This document shows positions 6,526 through 27,926 of a stretch of 33,570 bases of DNA, one piece after another (the stretch's first letter is position 1; each line of letters starts with the position of its first letter). The translations under genes were made by a program, and so were the position numbers. The DNA comes from Microcaldota archaeon (GTDB lineage: Archaea; Micrarchaeota; Micrarchaeia; Anstonellales; Bilamarchaeaceae), in assembly GCA_030648615.1 (NCBI GenBank), contig JAUSHJ010000039.1, positions 1 through 33,570 on the forward strand, given 5' to 3'. The notes under the pieces are model-generated. The model was given only the letters and a program-made list of their open reading frames with translations, searched no databases and was not told the DNA's origin.

Positions 6526-7833
6526 TTGAATAGAAAAGGTGACTATTTGAAAATTCTTGAGGAAAAACTTGCAAAATTCGGAATGAAACTTGGCTTAGAG
6601 AGGATTCGGACATTTTGCAGTTATCTTGGAAATCCCCAAAACAAAATGAAAGTAATTTTAGTTACTGGTACTAATGGAAAGGGAAGTGTCACCAGCTACT
6701 TATCAAGCATTCTCAAGGAAGAAGGTTACAAAACTGGTGCTTACTACTCTCCGCATATAAAAAAATATAATGAACGATTTCAAATAGATGGAAAACTTAT
6801 TTCTGATGTAAAATTTAAAAAATATGAGAAGATTACACTAGATTATTTGAAGAATAAGAAGGATAAAATTGAAAAGAAATTTTATCCGCATTGTAAATTA
6901 TCGAATTTACAATACAATAATAAAAAAGAAAACGAACTAACTTTATTCGAAGCACTTACAGGCATTGCATACAAATACTTTGCAGATGAAAACTGTGATT
7001 TCGCAGTAATGGAAATTGGTTTAGGAGGGAGATATGATGCGACAAACATTGCTGATGAGTGCATTTCCATAATAACAAATATTGCTCTGGAACACACAGA
7101 GTATCTTGGAGACCATGTGGAAAAAATAGCATGGGAAAAAGCAGGAATAATAAAAAAAGGTATCTCCATAACTGGTGCGGAAAAAGAAGCTTTGGAAATT
7201 ATAAAAATAGAAGCAAAAGGGCGAAACGTTCAATTAAAAATAATTAACGAGGATTTTTTTGCAACTTTGGTTGAAGCAACCGATAAACATACAGTGTTTG
7301 ATTACATTGGAGAGACATTTTACACGAAACTCGAAACTAATTTACTTGGCAGATATCAGGCAATTAATGCTGCATTAGCTGTTGCTGCTGCTGAAGAATT
7401 AGGAGTGGAACAAAATGCAATAAGAAAAGGTTTGAAAAATGCAAAGAATCCTGGAAGACTGGAGATAATTAGTACCAAATCATTGGTAGTTATTGACGCA
7501 GCACACAATATACACGGAATAAAGGAACTTGTAAAAAATCTGGATTTATTCAAATATGATAAATTAATTTGTGTTTTCGGAGTGATGAAAGACAAGGACT
7601 GGAAAGGAATGGTAACTTTACTTGCTCCTCACTGTGATAAAATGATAATAAATCAAATAAAAGATGAACGGGCAGCAGATGCAGATGAAGTTGCACGTTT
7701 CATACAACAATTCACGAGTGCCACCGCAATAAAAGACCCAAAGAAAAGCCTAGTTTTAGCTAAGAAAATAGCAAAAAAAGATGATTTAATCCTTATTTGT
7801 GGAAGCATTTACATGCTTGGCAAAATACTTTAA
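6526..7833 (+). CDS. folC: Folylpolyglutamate/dihydrofolate synthase FolC (Mur ligase family)
   Basis: VILVTGTNGKGSVTSYLSSIL, YYSPHIKKYNERFQIDG, MEIGLGGRYDATN, ITNIALEHTEYLG, VVIDAAHNIHGI. Start TTG 6526 or TTG 6547. Confidence 0.93.
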   Translation: MNRKGDYLKILEEKLAKFGMKLGLERIRTFCSYLGNPQNKMKVILVTGTNGKGSVTSYLSSILKEEGYKTGAYYSPHIKKYNERFQIDGKLISDVKFKKYEKITLDYLKNKKDKIEKKFYPHCKLSNLQYNNKKENELTLFEALTGIAYKYFADENCDFAVMEIGLGGRYDATNIADECISIITNIALEHTEYLGDHVEKIAWEKAGIIKKGISITGAEKEALEIIKIEAKGRNVQLKIINEDFFATLVEATDKHTVFDYIGETFYTKLETNLLGRYQAINAALAVAAAEELGVEQNAIRKGLKNAKNPGRLEIISTKSLVVIDAAHNIHGIKELVKNLDLFKYDKLICVFGVMKDKDWKGMVTLLAPHCDKMIINQIKDERAADADEVARFIQQFTSATAIKDPKKSLVLAKKIAKKDDLILICGSIYMLGKIL

Positions 7834-15486: not shown

Positions 15487-15651
15487 ATGGATAAAAAATA
15501 TTTGGAATTGAAACTCCCAAACGGAGAAATTGTGTTGCATCTTTTAAGAAAAGAAGGTACCCCTCTTGAAAGGCTAAGAGCTACACTAGGACCAGTAAAA
15601 GGAGATGTTAGAAAAATAAAGAAAGAAATTCAGGATGGTTTCGAATCATGA
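15487..15651 (+). CDS. Small uncharacterised protein (54 aa), coupled to the epimerase gene
   Basis: Below the track's size cutoff. ATG...MDKKYLELKLPNGEIVLHLLRKEGTPLERLRATLGPVKGDVRKIKKEIQDGFES*. TTTATAA about 26 nt upstream; its stop overlaps the next ATG (ATGA at 15648-15651). Confidence 0.6.
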   Translation: MDKKYLELKLPNGEIVLHLLRKEGTPLERLRATLGPVKGDVRKIKKEIQDGFES

Positions 15652-16535
15652 AGATATACATAACCGGAGCATCCGGAAGACTCGGTCACGCAGTAATGAA
15701 GCTTTTGCCTAGTGCAATCTCAGTTAACCTTAGAGATGAGTCTCTAAACTTAAAAAAAACATTTTCTAATGCTACTCACGTAATTCATTTAGCCGCATCT
15801 TTAAATTTCGAAGACGCAAGAGAACTATGGAAATCTAATTATGAATTAACGAAACGAGTAGTTAACTCACTACCGAAGAATTGCAAAATAGTATATGCGA
15901 GTTCAATCAGTGTTTACGGAAAGAGACTTGTAGAAATACCAGCAACAGAGAAAACTCCCTGCCACCCTGACAGTGCATACGCAAAAAGCAAATATGCTGC
16001 TGAACAAGAAGTAATTAAGCATGGAAATTACGTTGCTCTGCGAATTGCTGCAATCTATGGCCCTGGATTCACTGATTATTTCAAGATGATTGATGTTCTT
16101 AGAAAAGGACATATGAGAATTATTGGAGATGGCAGCAACAGAGTGCCGTTTGTTCATGTAGAAGATGTTGCAAAGGCGATTAAGAACTCTCTTAATGCGA
16201 AGAGCGGAATTTATCTTTTGTCTGCTGACTCGATAACACAAAGAAAAACGTTCGAAATAGTTTCCAAAGAATTGGGAATTACAACTCCTATGAAAACTAT
16301 TAGTCCAGACATAGTTCATGCATTGTTAAAGATTACAAAAATAATTAGAAAACTAACTCATAAGGGTGAATTCCTTACTCCTGAGCATTTGAACATTTTG
16401 TCTAAAGATAGAGTATTTGATTGTTCTAAAGCAAAGAAGGAATTGAAATTTAAACCGAGAAAGACTGAGCGGGGAATTGGAGAAATGGTGAAGGAGTATT
16501 TGAGGGTGAAAAAGAGTATGTCTGTTGTGAAGTGA
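15648..16535 (+). CDS. NAD-dependent epimerase/dehydratase (extended SDR)
   Basis: MKIYITGASGRLGHAV; HVIHLAA; YASSISVYG; YAKSKYAAEQ; RIAAIYGPG; VPFVHVEDVAKAI. Confidence 0.9.
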   Translation: MKIYITGASGRLGHAVMKLLPSAISVNLRDESLNLKKTFSNATHVIHLAASLNFEDARELWKSNYELTKRVVNSLPKNCKIVYASSISVYGKRLVEIPATEKTPCHPDSAYAKSKYAAEQEVIKHGNYVALRIAAIYGPGFTDYFKMIDVLRKGHMRIIGDGSNRVPFVHVEDVAKAIKNSLNAKSGIYLLSADSITQRKTFEIVSKELGITTPMKTISPDIVHALLKITKIIRKLTHKGEFLTPEHLNILSKDRVFDCSKAKKELKFKPRKTERGIGEMVKEYLRVKKSMSVVK

Positions 16536-16716: not shown

Positions 16717-17760
16717 TTATTGATAACAATAGGTTACGGTCATCTCGGATATGGTGATATATGACGAGTGATAAGAAATATTAGACTCACTTGTAAGAGA
16801 TATTGTAAAATCGCCATCCGCTGCAACATTAAGGCCATTAGAAGGATTTATGAGTTCGCTTCCTTGAAATGTAAGTGTTCTAGTTCGTTCACAACTGCTA
16901 GAAGCAAAATTTAGTGAGGTATTAATTGCATCTTCGACCGAAACTGCCCCCATACCATTAGTATTCATACCTATATATGAAACTGATAAACTTGCAATTG
17001 AATTGCGTAAATTAGTAAATAATACAGCAAATGACTCGTGAGCGCCAGAAGAACCAGAGATTGGACGACGTATACCAATATCAGGTTCACAAAAATTTCT
17101 ACTAGCAAAGTAAGAACAAGAATAATTCATATAACCGCGGGCGGTTAACCAATCAACATCTGGCACAATTGACGGAGTATTGCAATTGAATTCTATAGTC
17201 TTTGTCTCACAATTTCCTGTTGAACTCGTACCACCATCAGCTACTGTTCCACCGTCCGTACTAGTAGTACTACCTGCATCACCAGCGTCTCGTGTCTCGT
17301 GTCCAGCGTCTCCAGTTCTGCCGCCATCTGTCCTTGACCCTGCATCTCTTAAACCACTATCTACTTCGTTTGCATCGCATCTGCCAATTCTTGCATTGCA
17401 AGTAGTATCTTCTGGACAAGCGATTACCTCATGCGGATTCTTGCATGTTTCTTCTTCACAATAGTTGAGCGTATTACCTACGCACATGAAAGTTGGATTC
17501 CTTCTGGAAGTAGCATCAGTTTGACTATCAGCATCTCTAAATTCGCCATCATCTGGAGAAACGGTACTCCCAGCATCTGCTCTGGCAGAATTCGATTGTT
17601 TTATAGTAGAACTATCTCCACAACCAACAGCAGTCAATAGTGCAAAAGCACCAAGAGCAAACTTGTTTCTGCTAGCCTGTCGTGAACTTCGAGAAGTTGA
17701 ATTTGAAGTAGAAACTCTTGAACCAAATAGTTTAGTCATAAGACTCATATTAACACGCAT
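16717..17760 (-). CDS. Lipobox-containing surface protein with Asp/Ala/Gly-rich linkers and one Cys module
   Basis: FALGAFALLTAVGC lipobox; DAGSRTDGGRTGDAGHETRDAGDAGSTTSTDGG linker; CVGNTLNYCEEETCKNPHEVIACPEDTTCNARIGRC module; C-terminal beta-rich domain. Confidence 0.8.
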   Translation of the reverse strand: MRVNMSLMTKLFGSRVSTSNSTSRSSRQASRNKFALGAFALLTAVGCGDSSTIKQSNSARADAGSTVSPDDGEFRDADSQTDATSRRNPTFMCVGNTLNYCEEETCKNPHEVIACPEDTTCNARIGRCDANEVDSGLRDAGSRTDGGRTGDAGHETRDAGDAGSTTSTDGGTVADGGTSSTGNCETKTIEFNCNTPSIVPDVDWLTARGYMNYSCSYFASRNFCEPDIGIRRPISGSSGAHESFAVLFTNLRNSIASLSVSYIGMNTNGMGAVSVEDAINTSLNFASSSCERTRTLTFQGSELINPSNGLNVAADGDFTISLTSESNISYHSSYITISEMTVTYCYQ

Positions 17761-17921: not shown

Positions 17922-18863
17922 ATGCAAATTTACGAAATGGAAAAACAAAAGGACAGAGAAAGTGCTGCGAAAGAACTACTGAGATTTGAAAAGCTAATGA
18001 AGAAGACTGAGCAAGAATTCCAAAAATTACTTTCGTGGCAGATAAAATATTGTAAAGAAATTGTAGCCAACAAAAACGGTTATGAAGACAGGGTAATAAC
18101 TTATGGAACTACAGTTAAGTTCATTGAAAGAATTGATAACCCGTCGCCGGTGATGCTAAACGAAGTATACGATATAGAAAATGATGTAAAGAAAATCAAG
18201 CAGGAAGGATATGAAATAATAGGCGGGTTAGGAGGATTCTCTTTTAACAATGGAAGAGATGCTGGTGAATTAGTTTTTCTACCAGGTGGAACTGCAATAA
18301 GAACACAACTAGAAAACGGTTCGCACTACTCGATGATGGTAGCTCCTATGAATATTTATCCTCAGTGCATACTTACCGCAAGAAAAACTATAGATGAAAA
18401 ATTTGATAATAAAATTTTTCAGAATTGTAAATTATCAAATTTACAATATGAGAATGACAAAACTAATAAAAAAAGTAATCAAATGATCATAATTGTTTTT
18501 GAAAAAGGAGATGACGTCAAGCAAGGAATACAAAAAATTTCTGAATTAGTTGGAGATAGTAAAAAAACAATAACTGGAGTTATTAGCGGAAGTTTCACTG
18601 ATTTAAAAGGTTATATTTTTAGTGGAGCATCGCCAAAAACAGTTCTGACTAATTTTCAAATAAAAGAAAACAAAAATATGTTTTTCTATCAGACATTATT
18701 AGGAAAAGATGTAAAAGGTTTCAAAAGAGTTGTGCATACGCACGGTTATGAAGCTGCTAAATTTGGTGAACCGCATTCCTTTGGAGCGCATGTTGATGAT
18801 GCGATTATTAATATTTTTGCAATTGGTGTTTTTTCAATTATAGATAAAGTTGAGCAAAAGTAA
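17922..18863 (+). CDS. Uncharacterised protein; C-terminal half resembles a PPC/DUF296-type domain
   Basis: MIIIVFEKGDDVKQGIQKISELVGDSKKTITGVISGSFTDLKGYIFSG...RVVHTHGYEAAKFGEPHSFGAHVDDAIINIFAIGVFSI follows PPC/DUF296 order with His-rich motifs. CKLSNLQY insert precedes it. Confidence 0.55.
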   Translation: MQIYEMEKQKDRESAAKELLRFEKLMKKTEQEFQKLLSWQIKYCKEIVANKNGYEDRVITYGTTVKFIERIDNPSPVMLNEVYDIENDVKKIKQEGYEIIGGLGGFSFNNGRDAGELVFLPGGTAIRTQLENGSHYSMMVAPMNIYPQCILTARKTIDEKFDNKIFQNCKLSNLQYENDKTNKKSNQMIIIVFEKGDDVKQGIQKISELVGDSKKTITGVISGSFTDLKGYIFSGASPKTVLTNFQIKENKNMFFYQTLLGKDVKGFKRVVHTHGYEAAKFGEPHSFGAHVDDAIINIFAIGVFSIIDKVEQK

Positions 18864-19937
18864 TCAATCAATTTTTTTCAAATCCATAATTAACTTGACC
18901 AGATCACCTTGAGTTAAATGGGGCATGATAATAATCCTTATCCACTCCGAAAATTCGAAAACACCCCAACCACACGTTTCCAAATAATCTTTGAGTGAAT
19001 GAGTATCGAGTTTCTCTGATCTTATACCGATTATGTTGCAAACTGGTTTCATAACTGCTTTTATGGTTTTCAACTCCTTGAGCCGATCATAAAAATAATT
19101 AGTGAGCTCCAGACAAGTCTTGACTATTTCTTTGTACCCATTTTCACCGAGATATTCTATTACTGCTAGGGTTGCCATGGTTGGAGATGCTGGTCTAGTC
19201 CCAGCAATAACCGAAGAAGCTGCTGGATAGTACAATACATTTTCTGGACGCAATGAATCGAGCATCGTGCAATCCCTGAAAATAATGCACCCGGTCGGAG
19301 GCGGAACCAAACCCATTTTGTGCGGATCGATAGTTATCGAGGTTACTCCATCCACAGAAAAATCAAAATCTAGCAAATCATATCCAAGTTTTTTCATGAA
19401 CGGAAATACGAATCCGCCATATGCAGCATCAACATGCAAAGGTATTCCTGCAGCTAACGCAAATTCAGCTATTCTTGGAATATCGTCGATAACTCCCAAA
19501 CTAGTTGTTCCTGCAGTTGCCACAACTGCTACAGTATTTTCTGTGATTGCATTTTTGAGTTTCTCGACATCTACCGTATAGTCAAATCCAGCAGATACTG
19601 GACGTGGAGTTAATCCGAGCAAACGACATGCCCTTAGTATGGAGTAATGTGAGGTTATTGGAAATACGACTTCGCCACCTGGTATTTTCTTTCTCTCTCT
19701 TGCAGCCCACAATGCAATGATATTTGCCTCTGTGCCTCCGGAAACGATATGACCTCCTGCAGTTTGAGGTGTGTTAAGGAAACCACCAACTAAACGTACT
19801 GCTTTTTGCTCCATTTCCAAGGGAACGTGGATACCTAATTCCTGACCAGCATGCATCTGAAATGCATTGCGGGCAATATGATGAGGCACAGCAGTCATTG
19901 TACCTAGTTGTTTTATGTGCATGTGATGATTTAACAA
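18864..19937 (-). CDS. mfnA: L-tyrosine/L-aspartate decarboxylase MfnA (PLP-dependent)
   Basis: GGHIVSGGTEANIIALWAARE; TAGTTSLGVIDDI; HVDAAYGGFVFPF; SITIDPHKMGLVPPPTG with the PLP Lys. Confidence 0.92.
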   Translation of the reverse strand: MLNHHMHIKQLGTMTAVPHHIARNAFQMHAGQELGIHVPLEMEQKAVRLVGGFLNTPQTAGGHIVSGGTEANIIALWAARERKKIPGGEVVFPITSHYSILRACRLLGLTPRPVSAGFDYTVDVEKLKNAITENTVAVVATAGTTSLGVIDDIPRIAEFALAAGIPLHVDAAYGGFVFPFMKKLGYDLLDFDFSVDGVTSITIDPHKMGLVPPPTGCIIFRDCTMLDSLRPENVLYYPAASSVIAGTRPASPTMATLAVIEYLGENGYKEIVKTCLELTNYFYDRLKELKTIKAVMKPVCNIIGIRSEKLDTHSLKDYLETCGWGVFEFSEWIRIIIMPHLTQGDLVKLIMDLKKID

Positions 19938-20004
19938 TAAGAGTGATTAAAAATGTTGGCTAAAACTTAGTAGAGAATACTTGAATTGTGCCCACCAGCA
20001 AATG

Positions 20005-20042
20005 CTTATAAATATGTGTTTGTATGTTTATATGGTTATATG
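20005..20042 (+). promoter_or_regulatory. TATA box (CTTATAAATA) followed by three contiguous 8-bp direct repeats, a candidate operator
   Basis: TTTGTATG (20019-20026), TTTATATG (20027-20034), GTTATATG (20035-20042), downstream of the box at 20005-20014. Confidence 0.5.
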
Positions 20043-20048
20043 CAGTGT

Positions 20049-20073
20049 AGCAGGTCGCTACGCGACAGTCGAT
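20049..20073 (+). other. 25-nt hairpin motif, copy 1, in the 5' leader of the RHH-GGGPS gene
   Basis: AGCAGGTCGCTACGCGACAGTCGAT; stem GTCGC/GCGAC. Copy 2 at 25692-25716 shows compensatory changes. Confidence 0.55.
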
Positions 20074-20085
20074 TAAGGTGAATCT

Positions 20086-21030
20086 ATGAGAACAACTTTA
20101 GACCTAGAAGATGATGTTTATAAGAAACTGGTCAATCTGTCTGTAGAAAAATACGGAAATACCAAAAACATGTCGCAAGTTATGAGTGATTTATTGAAGT
20201 CCGGGGGTAAAAGGCAAAAGGAAGAGAAATTGATTACTTCCAGTGATCATCCAATCAAACGCGGAAAAATAGAAAATTACATTCTAGATGGAATCGAAAG
20301 ATATGGTGGACTACTTTTTGCAGTAATAGATCCGATGGATTACAAAAGTTTAGATGATGCAGTTAAAACTGCGAAAAATGCGAATGAAGGCGGAGCAGAT
20401 GTAATTCTTATAGGAGGTAGCACTGGAGTACAAGGAGAAATACTCGATACAGTAACACGCACAATTAAAGAAAGCGTGAATGTTCCAGTTGTATTATTTC
20501 CAGGGAATATCGGGACTGTAACAAAATATGCTGACGCAGTTTATTTCATGTCTTTACTAAATTCAAATAATCCGTATTGGATAAGCAAAGCTCAAATGCT
20601 CGCAGCCCCTACAGTAAAGCAAATGGGTATCGAAGCATTGCCTACTGGATACATGGTTGTTGAGCCAGGGGGAACTGTTGGCTATGTAGGTGAAGCAAAT
20701 TTACTCCCTCGTGATAAACCAAAACTTGCTGCAGCCATGGCATTAGGAGCGCAGTACATGGGTTTTAGATTTATAATTACAGATGCAGGTAGCAATCCAA
20801 AAGAAGGGCACATTCCTTTAGAAATGGTTGCGACTGTCTCGAAGTTCATTGACGTTCCTTACATTGTTGCTGGTGGAGTAAGAACTCCTGAACAGGCAGG
20901 CAGCATAATAACTGCTGGTGCTGATGCTGTACAAGTTGGAACGGCATTTGAGCATGATAATGCAGTTGAAAAGGTAAAGCAGATGGTTGCTGCAGTACGA
21001 CAAGGAGCTAAAGCTAGGAAGAAGGAGTAA
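20086..21030 (+). CDS. Geranylgeranylglyceryl phosphate synthase with an N-terminal ribbon-helix-helix domain
   Basis: N-terminus MRTTLDLEDDVYKKLVNLSVEKYGNTKNMSQVMSDLLKSG is RHH/CopG-like. The rest has GGADVILIGGSTGV, VPVVLFPGNIGTVTKYADAVYFMSLLNSNNPYWI, EALPTGYMVVEPGGTVGYVG, TDAGSNPKEGHIPLEMV, YIVAGGVRTPEQA. Upstream AAGGTGA is an SD site. Confidence 0.9.
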   Translation: MRTTLDLEDDVYKKLVNLSVEKYGNTKNMSQVMSDLLKSGGKRQKEEKLITSSDHPIKRGKIENYILDGIERYGGLLFAVIDPMDYKSLDDAVKTAKNANEGGADVILIGGSTGVQGEILDTVTRTIKESVNVPVVLFPGNIGTVTKYADAVYFMSLLNSNNPYWISKAQMLAAPTVKQMGIEALPTGYMVVEPGGTVGYVGEANLLPRDKPKLAAAMALGAQYMGFRFIITDAGSNPKEGHIPLEMVATVSKFIDVPYIVAGGVRTPEQAGSIITAGADAVQVGTAFEHDNAVEKVKQMVAAVRQGAKARKKE

Positions 21031-22622: not shown

Positions 22623-22664
22623 GCTAGCCAAACTCTTTTAAGTTTTCCGTGAGGAGTGAGTACC

Positions 22665-23327
22665 ATGGTAAACACAGAATTCATAGAATTTCTAGCTAAA
22701 AGCGGTGCAGTTAAGTTCGGAGAGTTCACTCTAAAAAGCGGACGACAGTCGCCATTCTTCATTAGTACAGGTGTACTCTGTGATGGTACAACAAGCTACG
22801 AATTAGGTAAGCACTACGCAAGAAAGATAACTGAAGTATACAAAGACCAGTTCTCTGCTATTTTTGGCCCAGCGTATAAAGGAATACCACTTGCAGTTTC
22901 CGTTTCCATTGCATTACAAAAGGAATTTTCAATTAATAGATGCTGGATGTTCGATAGAAAAGAGAAGAAAACCCATGGTGATGCAAGTTCTTTTGTTGGA
23001 CCTAATCTTGATCTTGGATCTAAGTTTATAATCGTAGATGATGTCATGACCACTGGAGAAACTAAGCTGGAAGCAGTAGAAAAGATAACTAATGGATTAA
23101 AGGGCGAAGTAATAGGAATTATCATTGCAGTTGACAGACAAGAGAAAAGAATCAAACTAAATGCAACTGAAGAGTTTACTGAAAAAACTGGGATTCCAGT
23201 TCATAGTATTACTACAATAAAAGAAATATTTGATCATCTTCTGAACAGAAATGTAGACGGGAAAGTTTACGTTGATGGAGATACCTACGCGGCTTTTACC
23301 GAATATAGAAAGAAGTATGGGATTTAA
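22665..23327 (+). CDS. pyrE: Orotate phosphoribosyltransferase
   Basis: FGEFTLKSGRQSPFFISTG; IFGPAYKGIPLAVSVS; FIIVDDVMTTGETKLEAVEKI PRPP-binding motif. GAGGAG precedes ATG 22665. Confidence 0.93.
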   Translation: MVNTEFIEFLAKSGAVKFGEFTLKSGRQSPFFISTGVLCDGTTSYELGKHYARKITEVYKDQFSAIFGPAYKGIPLAVSVSIALQKEFSINRCWMFDRKEKKTHGDASSFVGPNLDLGSKFIIVDDVMTTGETKLEAVEKITNGLKGEVIGIIIAVDRQEKRIKLNATEEFTEKTGIPVHSITTIKEIFDHLLNRNVDGKVYVDGDTYAAFTEYRKKYGI

Positions 23328-24076: not shown

Positions 24077-24562
24077 TCATACTGTTGAAAGTAATGTTCC
24101 TAATCCCATTTCAGTTGCATGTTCTCTGATGAACTTAGAAGCATCGGAATCCGGATTTGTTTTAACTTCCTCAATTAATTGTGCTTTGAAAGCATCTATT
24201 CGTTCTTGTCTTACACGAACTTCTTCCCCGACTCTTGTAAAAGCATCTGTTTCCAATGTAATAGCATTAGGACCATATGGTTTTTTGGAAAGGAATTTTC
24301 TTCTAGTCAATTCATCTGGAGAGCCAACATAAGAATTTTCAACTACAGTAAACCCAGTTTCTTTTGTCCAATAGCATCGATGCTCGTCCCCATTCTTTCC
24401 GATTCCCCTCTGAAAGAAATCTATTGGAGCTTCGGTGTAAGCAATTCTTGGTGGATGAAGATTGCGAATAGAATCTCTTAAAGACTCTCTTGAAGAACGT
24501 ACATCCGATCCATCTATTTTTACTCTACTTAGTGTTGTTTTACCTACTAGTTTAAGTGTCAT
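24077..24562 (-). CDS. Uncharacterised protein, tandem paralog of 24576-25256
   Basis: ATG 24562 (MTLKLVGKTTLS) with GGTGAT upstream preferred over the track start 24664. C-terminal FKAQLIEEVKTNPDSDASKFIREHATEMGL is shared with its neighbour. Confidence 0.7.
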   Translation of the reverse strand: MTLKLVGKTTLSRVKIDGSDVRSSRESLRDSIRNLHPPRIAYTEAPIDFFQRGIGKNGDEHRCYWTKETGFTVVENSYVGSPDELTRRKFLSKKPYGPNAITLETDAFTRVGEEVRVRQERIDAFKAQLIEEVKTNPDSDASKFIREHATEMGLGTLLSTV

Positions 24563-24575
24563 ATTATCACCATTT

Positions 24576-25256
24576 TTATTTCGAAAATTCCAATCCCATT
24601 TCAACTGCATGTGCTCTGATGAATACTGATTTTTCTGATAATGGATTTGTTTTAACTTCCTCAATTAATCTTATTTTGAAAAGAGTAATCTTACATTTTG
24701 AATCGAAATCACTAAGATCGCCAGCAGAATGACCAGAATTATCATAGATTTCAAGTCCTTTACCCGTATCCCATACAACTCTATATCCATCTTCGTTTTT
24801 ACCAATGCCTACTGTTGTTTTTTCCCCTCCATATAAATCGAGTGGTTGACTTGTGTATTTAAACGAAGGACTACCAGTTTGACTAAGTTTCATTTCTGCA
24901 AAAGATTCGACAGATCCGCCTTCACCAGTTGGAATCCAAGGTTTAGAATCTAAGTACCAGCCATCTCTTGTTGGGAACGCTGGAACTAAATCAACTCCTC
25001 GATCATCACGTCCATCAATACATGTAATATCAGAAGTACCAAACTGAGGCTCTGCTTCTTTTACGAATGGATTTGGAGTATCTGGTTTATCCCTAGCAGA
25101 AATTCTAGCAAATCCAGTTTCTAACAATAATCTTGCACCTACCAAATTTAATTTAATCCCGTGAACAGCATCTTTGAAAGGACTAGCAATATCTTTTGGC
25201 TTATCTCCTGGTTTTCCTGGCTTGAATATCAAATTATCACCTAAACTATTACTCAA
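24576..25256 (-). CDS. Uncharacterised protein, tandem paralog of 24077-24562
   Basis: Shares IKLNLVGA, GIGKNEDGYRVVW and FKIRLIEEVKTNPLSEKSVFIRAHAVEMGL. TTG start at 25256 is uncertain; TATA at 25263-25270 suggests a more internal start. Confidence 0.65.
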   Translation of the reverse strand: MSNSLGDNLIFKPGKPGDKPKDIASPFKDAVHGIKLNLVGARLLLETGFARISARDKPDTPNPFVKEAEPQFGTSDITCIDGRDDRGVDLVPAFPTRDGWYLDSKPWIPTGEGGSVESFAEMKLSQTGSPSFKYTSQPLDLYGGEKTTVGIGKNEDGYRVVWDTGKGLEIYDNSGHSAGDLSDFDSKCKITLFKIRLIEEVKTNPLSEKSVFIRAHAVEMGLEFSK

Positions 25257-25799: not shown

Positions 25800-26816
25800 A
25801 TGCGAAATAGCCACAGAGAAAAATTCGCCAAAAAACGATGGGACGAAACAGTACTACTACCGAAACGAAGAATGACTGAAACTGAAGAATTAATAAGAAA
25901 ACTTGGCTCACCCATGGAAGAGGGAGTTTACTCCGATTCAAAAGCAAAACACATGTGGAAAATTGCCGATTGGGTAGAAGATATACGCGGCAAACGATGG
26001 GGAGAACGAAGTAAAGAAGGAGAATTGAGCGACGATATAGAAGCAATTTATTCGTTACTATTGCCACGAGAGCTACAAGCAAACATTTGCATCCCAGTTG
26101 ACCTTAACCGGATTTTAAAAATACTCGTTTCAGAAAGGAACTTTTTCACTAATCGTGGAATGCTTACTCCTGCACATATAATGGAATTGTCACTCCAAAA
26201 AAGGCAGAAAATCCTTACCTACCCTCACAATTATCTGAACTATGCGATGTTCGCCATGGTGGGTGTATTAAGAGAATTGAATTACGATGCAAAAGTAGCA
26301 TTTAAGCAAATGGAAATAGAAATGGGAACTTCTGATGGCGCTGTAATACTAAATAGTGGGATAGTAGTATGCACAGCTTTGATAACCCCGGATAACACCA
26401 ATAAACTCGTGATAGCTGGAATAGGTAGAAATGATTGTGAATATGACTCTGTTTTCATACCTGATGAAGAAAGTGCCATGGGAGTAGCAGCACTATTAAC
26501 TGCAGCAAATGCAGTTATGAAATATCTAACACTGGAAAAAGATATTGGTAGAATAAAACTTGATATCATGAGAGAGATTATAAGAAATCTAGAATGTGCT
26601 CAAAATGAAATAGCAGATGGAACCGACATCATAGTGGATTTTATGGCACCGCTTTTCGACATACTAGAAAGGACTTTCGATAGAAGCGTTATCGATGCGC
26701 TCTCAAGATCAAGAGTAGTATATGAGATTATAGAATCCGGAAAAGAAAGATTGGAACATATTAATGATTTTAAAACAGCAAGTGAAATAGCAGAACGTGC
26801 AGAAGGAACTAATTAG
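25800..26816 (+). CDS. Uncharacterised protein, tandem paralog A
   Basis: RGMLTPAHIMEL...TYPHNYLNYAMFAMVGVLRELNYDAKVAFKQMEIE... parallels 26901-27926 over most of its length. Confidence 0.75.
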   Translation: MRNSHREKFAKKRWDETVLLPKRRMTETEELIRKLGSPMEEGVYSDSKAKHMWKIADWVEDIRGKRWGERSKEGELSDDIEAIYSLLLPRELQANICIPVDLNRILKILVSERNFFTNRGMLTPAHIMELSLQKRQKILTYPHNYLNYAMFAMVGVLRELNYDAKVAFKQMEIEMGTSDGAVILNSGIVVCTALITPDNTNKLVIAGIGRNDCEYDSVFIPDEESAMGVAALLTAANAVMKYLTLEKDIGRIKLDIMREIIRNLECAQNEIADGTDIIVDFMAPLFDILERTFDRSVIDALSRSRVVYEIIESGKERLEHINDFKTASEIAERAEGTN

Positions 26817-26900
26817 AGATCAGTAACCAATAGATTTTGATTGTATAAAACATATGTACAATAGATAGATTTAAATTCTCATTTTATCAGCTAATATAAC

Positions 26901-27926
26901 ATGAAGCATTATGATCTAAAATTTAACATCCCAATTCCAGGCAACAAATTAATAATAAGCCCAAGAACAAATGAGGCGGATATAAGAAAAATAAGAAATG
27001 TTTTAGGGGCACCTTTAATGGAGGGTGTATTTTCTGATTCTACAAGTGGGAACGTAAAAAGACTAGCTGAATTAGTAAGGCTATCCAGAGGCCAAAGATG
27101 GGAAATGTTACGGCAAGATGTAAAAGTCCAACATGATATAAATGCAGTATTTTCTATTTTGCTACCGGATAGTGAGAAGGCAATTCTTCAGCCTCTGGTA
27201 GATGTAAATGCAGATAGAAAAAGAGTTGAAATCGTAGTTACTCCAGTAGAAGAACTCCATAACGCCGGAATGCTTACTCCTGCACATATTTTAGATAATA
27301 TAATGCAGTTCGATAAGAGTGATGTGTTTATCGCTTATCCCTTGGATTACCATCACTATGTTGGAATAGTAATGGTTGCAGTATTAAGAGAACTAGGATA
27401 TGAAGTACGGGTGGCTATGAAGTATAAATTGATGGAGATAGAAACCGCTGATGGAGATAAACAATTTCATATTAATCCACTTATATCTGCTGCACTAATT
27501 GAACCGTCTAATGAGAATGAGCTAATAGTCATGGGATTTGGATCCTGGAATGTCGGATATAATTATGTCAGGATTTTTGATGACCAATCTGCAGTAGGTG
27601 TAGTAGGTCTGCTTACTGCATATAATGCAATTATAAAAATATCAAAAGGAGTAGAATTAACCGGCAAAGTTAAAGTAAAACATATTTATGAATTCCTCCA
27701 AGCACTCAGTTTGGGCTTGAACATGCTACCGGGAAATGGAGAAATGGAAAAGGATTTTTTAGCTCCAGTACTATCACGTATTGCTAAAAATGAACCTCTT
27801 ATGAAAGTTCTTGAAAAGACTACTAATCTGGGGCAGTTCATAGAAGAAACAGTCGATAGATTGGAAGAAATGAAAATGGTTGAAAGAGAAACACCTAAAG
27901 ACAGTGATCCGAATATGTTTAGCTAA
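26901..27926 (+). CDS. Uncharacterised protein, tandem paralog B
   Basis: AGMLTPAHILDN...AYPLDYHHYVGIVMVAVLRELGYEVRVAMKYKLMEIE...; shared promoter block with paralog A. Confidence 0.75.
   Translation: MKHYDLKFNIPIPGNKLIISPRTNEADIRKIRNVLGAPLMEGVFSDSTSGNVKRLAELVRLSRGQRWEMLRQDVKVQHDINAVFSILLPDSEKAILQPLVDVNADRKRVEIVVTPVEELHNAGMLTPAHILDNIMQFDKSDVFIAYPLDYHHYVGIVMVAVLRELGYEVRVAMKYKLMEIETADGDKQFHINPLISAALIEPSNENELIVMGFGSWNVGYNYVRIFDDQSAVGVVGLLTAYNAIIKISKGVELTGKVKVKHIYEFLQALSLGLNMLPGNGEMEKDFLAPVLSRIAKNEPLMKVLEKTTNLGQFIEETVDRLEEMKMVERETPKDSDPNMFS

Follow-up and report, generated by a model that had tools for sequence, protein, structure and literature searches.

A VapB-type ribbon-helix-helix domain joined in frame to the predicted GGGP synthase of a Micrarchaeota genome, with operator-like octamers in its own promoter

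The window, by which we mean the whole 33,570-nucleotide stretch of DNA analysed, carries an open reading frame at 20086-21030 on the forward strand that runs from ATG to stop without interruption and encodes 314 aa. The protein begins with a ribbon-helix-helix (RHH) domain that ends near aa 45, continues through a linker (aa 46-56) and closes with a complete GGGP synthase (GGGPS; aa 57-312). The features of the locus are as follows.

15648-16535, forward strand: NAD-dependent epimerase, from a profile match
18864-19937, reverse strand: mfnA-like PLP decarboxylase, divergent; its profile match begins at model position 22
19998-20014, forward strand: candidate archaeal promoter, GCAAAT (BRE-like) with TTATAAATA (TATA-like), from sequence
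20015-20046, forward strand: tandem octamers TGTGTTTG TATGTTTA TATGGTTA TATGCAGT, a predicted VapB-type operator, from a half-site matrix
20076-20081, forward strand: AGGTGA, Shine-Dalgarno-like, 4 nt before the ATG at 20086, from sequence
20086-20220, forward strand: VapB-type RHH domain, from aa 1 to roughly aa 45 (MRTTLDLEDDVYKKLVNLSVEKYGNTKNMSQVMSDLLKSGGKRQK), from homology, alignment, AlphaFold and Foldseek
20221-20253, forward strand: linker, aa 46-56, containing TTG codon 49 (20230-20232)
20254-20256, forward strand: ATC (Ile57) at the ancestral GGGPS start position, from comparison with relatives
20254-21030, forward strand: GGGP synthase domain and stop codon, aa 57-314, from profile matches and AlphaFold
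22656-23327, forward strand: pyrE (orotate phosphoribosyltransferase-like), the downstream GGGPS neighbour in many relatives

The BRE-like and TATA-like calls at 19998-20014 follow the general archaeal promoter consensus. The GC-rich stretch at 20047-20070, between the octamers and the ribosome-binding site, holds several short inverted repeats. A structured RNA leader was sought at 20037-20120, and this segment folded no better than its shuffles (z -0.5).

The synthase part matched Pfam PcrB (8.5e-49, aa 81-300), NCBIfam PRK04169.1-2 (4e-89, aa 60-305) and TIGR01769 (1e-62). The NCBIfam match exceeds the curated cut-off and the domain is full length, placing this part in the PcrB family. AlphaFold modeled the barrel confidently, with pLDDT of 76-98 in most 10-residue blocks past residue 60; residues 1-55 were of low confidence in this full-length run, whose alignment contained no RHH homologues. 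The domain is predicted to catalyze the first committed step in archaeal membrane ether-lipid synthesis (GGPP to G1P). It is also the sole GGGPS found in the 1.65-Mb genome, so unless the fused frame is translated the cell has no such enzyme. This metagenome-assembled genome (MAG) of 76 contigs is about 90% complete and is assigned to Candidatus Micrarchaeota by its nearest relatives. The first-pass annotation had described a single uninterrupted frame joining an RHH-like N-terminus to a complete GGGP synthase, and the reading frame, profiles, homology and AlphaFold models all agree with it. The linker that it called Lys-rich is present and short, at about 11-16 aa.

Searched apart from the enzyme, the N-terminus proved to have detectable RHH kinship. 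Pfam was silent for residues 1-60 alone; a search of relatives returned stand-alone VapB antitoxins at E values of 1.4e-8 and 2.8e-8, with 47-49% identity. In an alignment of 27 sequences, the RHH-family positions TT, L, Y, L, S and N are conserved, and AlphaFold run on that alignment modeled an extended N-terminus and then two helices (9-23 and 29-47), with pLDDT of 84-92 over residues 1-40. Both the beta-alpha-alpha fold of about 45 residues and homology to RHH proteins were therefore found. About ten of 23 Foldseek matches were RHH proteins such as CopG, Arc, ParD, MazE6, AtaR and PrpA, though all the matches were individually insignificant (best E 2.3). When the RHH profile was searched against PDB sequences, it gave a weak match to NikR only (E 0.075). 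One homologue, L125, matched VAPB_antitox and RHH_5, in both cases under the curated cut-off.

A profile search located the RHH family in 82 of the 303 Micrarchaeota genomes. The nearest homologues are VapB antitoxins of 70-90 aa encoded directly upstream of PIN-domain toxins; the downstream PIN domain was confirmed by Pfam for five of them, and a PIN-like start follows in most of the loci inspected. We looked for homologues on plasmids and found none. The toxin-binding C-terminal tail of VapB is absent from the fusion, where GGGPS comes after aa 56, and no PIN match, hence no adjacent vapC, was found on the contig. By sequence, the fusion RHH is best described as a VapB antitoxin head that has no toxin-binding tail.

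The strand of this head retains R2 and T4 in the 27-sequence alignment. At its outward-facing position 6 it has Asp, whereas I, L, N, V, M or S is found there in homologues, and an acidic residue on the DNA-facing strand could weaken DNA contact. This unusual residue leaves room for a reading in which the vapB fragment supplied only a promoter, a ribosome-binding site and a start codon, the RHH domain being carried along as a tolerated passenger with no remaining regulatory role of note. We consider that reading rather unlikely, as most of the family-conserved residues have been kept in the RHH and operator octamers are preserved beside it.

The gene neighborhood also bears on the passenger reading. 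Among relatives, 48 of 109 loci have the epimerase directly upstream of GGGPS, at a distance of 12-255 bp. In the window it lies 3.5 kb upstream with three genes between, mfnA included, indicating that the operon is broken here. The mfnA-like gene, which is possibly truncated at its N-terminus, appears to be private, with no close homologue in 58 relatives and one remote match of 31%. The operon break and the private mfnA fit the rearrangement proposed below; they would also suit promoter capture without regulation, as would the occurrence of the fusion in one genome only.

Other features of the region were recorded. A palindromic element of about 66 nt, with the core TTGTAAATT-ATCR-AATTTACAA, occurs at 6862-6927 and 18396-18461 of the window and at 34223-34288 of another contig (C41) of the genome. 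It encodes EKFDKKIFQNCKLSNLQY and has been inserted, each time in the same frame, into three unrelated proteins (FolC, the product of ORF 17922-18863, and a membrane protein); weaker copies occur in some relatives, and the element is reminiscent of the palindromic elements found in coding sequences of Rickettsia. The reverse strand at 16717-17760 encodes a long protein rich in Asp, Gly and Thr; it has a lipobox-like VGCGDSS and, by eye, the look of a Myxococcota lipoprotein. Orphan genes that lie side by side and resemble each other form two pairs, at 24077-25256 (reverse strand) and 25800-27926 (forward strand), with repeated DNA at matching places, which suggests that they arose by local tandem duplication.

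A GGGPS match was present in 273 of the 303 Micrarchaeota genomes, and the alignment extended through the RHH in the window genome only; none of the other 272 has the fusion. A sample of additional regions whose frames were long or suspicious was inspected, and those bearing GGGPS had no RHH. A scan across 85,462 species, which reaches close relatives only, yielded 80 loci, none with the fusion. In open-licence papers we found no published RHH-GGGPS fusion, no other GGGPS fusion and no regulator of this lipid step. The first-pass annotation had held confinement to this assembly against a genuine fusion, and among the 303 genomes the fusion is indeed so confined. The loss of the ancestral start codon, together with a matching operator, nonetheless favors a real private fusion over an artefact.

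The start codons were compared with those of relatives. Of 87 distinct GGGPS relatives, 25 begin exactly at the position of codon 57; almost all of these use ATG, and their usual opening is MKxGKxE. Most of the rest begin within 3 codons of that position. The fusion has ATC there, and the ancestral start codon appears to have been lost. The only usual in-frame start codon between Met34 and Met84 is TTG at codon 49. These observations indicate that the native start is gone and that the vapB-derived start at 20086 has taken its place. If translation instead began at TTG49 (20230), GGGPS would be made with a near-native N-terminus and the RHH would be unexpressed or separate; the purine-rich AGGAAG preceding this codon would fit. 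We judge this quite improbable, given the AGGTGA placed 4 nt before the ATG at 20086, the lack of another usual in-frame start in this interval and the lack of a stop codon between the two parts.

The same junction bears on whether the fusion is an assembly artefact, with a vapB fragment of other origin placed before GGGPS in silico. The source is a MAG, the fusion occurs in no second genome, and the GGGPS of the closest relative (L033/L004) adjoins an apparent EF-Ts fragment at a contig end (L033 1-110), probably a misassembly, so chimeras occur in such data. Against this, the junction is in frame and a few codons from the natural start, the linker is open, the native ATG is lost and no second copy of the RHH was found in the genome. 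An assembly chimera is, on this evidence, improbable.

One clade of VapB genes has a common palindrome, TATATGTTTARRCATAYAAACATAT, over the TATA box. A half-site matrix was built from the VapB operators of that clade only, with the window excluded, and run over both strands of the window. Ranks 1, 2 and 3 of 67,116 window positions fell at 20023, 20031 and 20015, exactly 8 bp apart, directly downstream of the TATA-like box and upstream of the fusion. A full-palindrome matrix again ranked the same promoter site first in the window. When 19938-20085 was shuffled 5000 times with dinucleotides preserved, 81 shuffles reached the best score and 1 reached the top-three sum; these statistics are post hoc, since the matrix was made after the resemblance had been noticed by eye and the motif was sought for that reason. 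The sequence TATGNTTATATGNTTATATG is matched exactly once in the genome, in the fusion promoter, and its weaker matches are no commoner genome-wide than those of a reversed control.

Comparable half-sites were found upstream of GGGPS in 0 of 87 relatives. High half-site scores were obtained for some VapBs outside the matrix (L125, L166 and L167, and G013 on the top-three sum), and many VapB clades have no such operator, among them that of L138, the VapB closest by identity. An operator in the gene's own promoter, as in VapB systems, is thus present by sequence similarity only. It had been proposed that the enzyme binds DNA and controls its own gene or other lipid genes. The VapB-type half-sites speak for control of its own gene; control of the others lacks support, as no second operator was found in the genome. 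Only the divergent mfnA shares its intergenic region with the fusion gene.

A further possibility is that the RHH was taken from a vapBC locus of the same genome, on contig C36, and that the fusion still regulates that toxin locus. Contig C36 does carry a headless VapB tail before a PIN toxin (L127, reverse strand, downstream of an apparent radA), and the orthologous pair in a relative (L198, genome G013) has an RHH head. The VapC proteins of the two genomes are 69% identical, whereas by eye the window RHH and the G013 head agree at about one position in three, L125 and L113 both being more similar to the window RHH, and no operator-like site lies upstream of the C36 locus. With low head similarity and no such site, the headless vapB is a poor fit as donor, and this origin is highly improbable.

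The best explanation, which rests on a single MAG and which we hold to be slightly better than an even chance, is a genuine lineage-private fusion in which a rearrangement captured the promoter, operator and head of a vapB gene and created an autoregulated enzyme of the PutA type. The rearrangement would have parted GGGPS from its usual operon and landed the 5' half of vapB (promoter, operator and RHH head) in frame before it, with neither the tail nor vapC, and the old GGGPS start codon would then have been lost. The RHH would dimerize and bind the octamer array immediately 3' of the TATA box, and the bound fusion would repress its own promoter and possibly that of the divergent mfnA. The fusion enzyme may in this way switch its own gene off. 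Autoregulation of the gene is probable, and the only GGGPS of the cell would be an autogenous repressor setting its own level.

Within this explanation, ligand or oligomeric state may control DNA binding. Group II GGGPS enzymes are mostly hexamers, with some dimers (PMC9385802), and catalytic efficiency falls about 380-fold when the hexamer is disrupted (PMC9298306). Since the hexamer is needed for efficiency, assembly state could link catalysis to DNA binding. In the specific form of this idea, occupancy by G1P/GGPP or dimer-hexamer assembly would shift the RHH heads over the octamers, making GGGPS a substrate-sensing repressor; we regard this form as distinctly unlikely. If true, it would couple lipid-precursor supply to the expression of the enzyme itself. 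The fusion would offer a direct way of testing self-regulation at the very step by which archaeal membranes are defined.

Three known systems were compared with the fusion. Its enzyme part resembles the group II MtGGGPS (PDB 4mm1), with full-length homology (phmmer 2e-67). The aromatic anchor W141 of MtGGGPS corresponds to Tyr200, but the cationic anchor partner K146 (PMC9298306) corresponds to Asn205, making hexamer formation by the fusion uncertain; the RHH extension is a further difference. Like the RHH-type VapBs of Micrarchaeota vapBC operons, the fusion has a homologous head and similar half-sites (TATGTTTA) in its promoter; unlike them, it has an enzyme in place of the toxin-binding tail, and vapC is not next door. 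The trifunctional proline utilization A (PutA) of enterobacteria likewise has an N-terminal RHH on a metabolic enzyme and is an autogenous repressor (PMC5293562). The two share an N-terminal RHH on an enzyme and an operator upstream of their own gene, the latter judged here from sequence. They differ in that PutA is catabolic, with redox and membrane switching, whereas the fusion joins a VapB-type RHH to an unrelated biosynthetic enzyme. Grafting the EcPutA RHH onto a PutA that has none conferred DNA binding and left catalysis intact (PMC5293562). An antitoxin head with its operator may be capturable as a ready-made autoregulatory module, and the fusion described here would be a natural counterpart of that engineered chimera.
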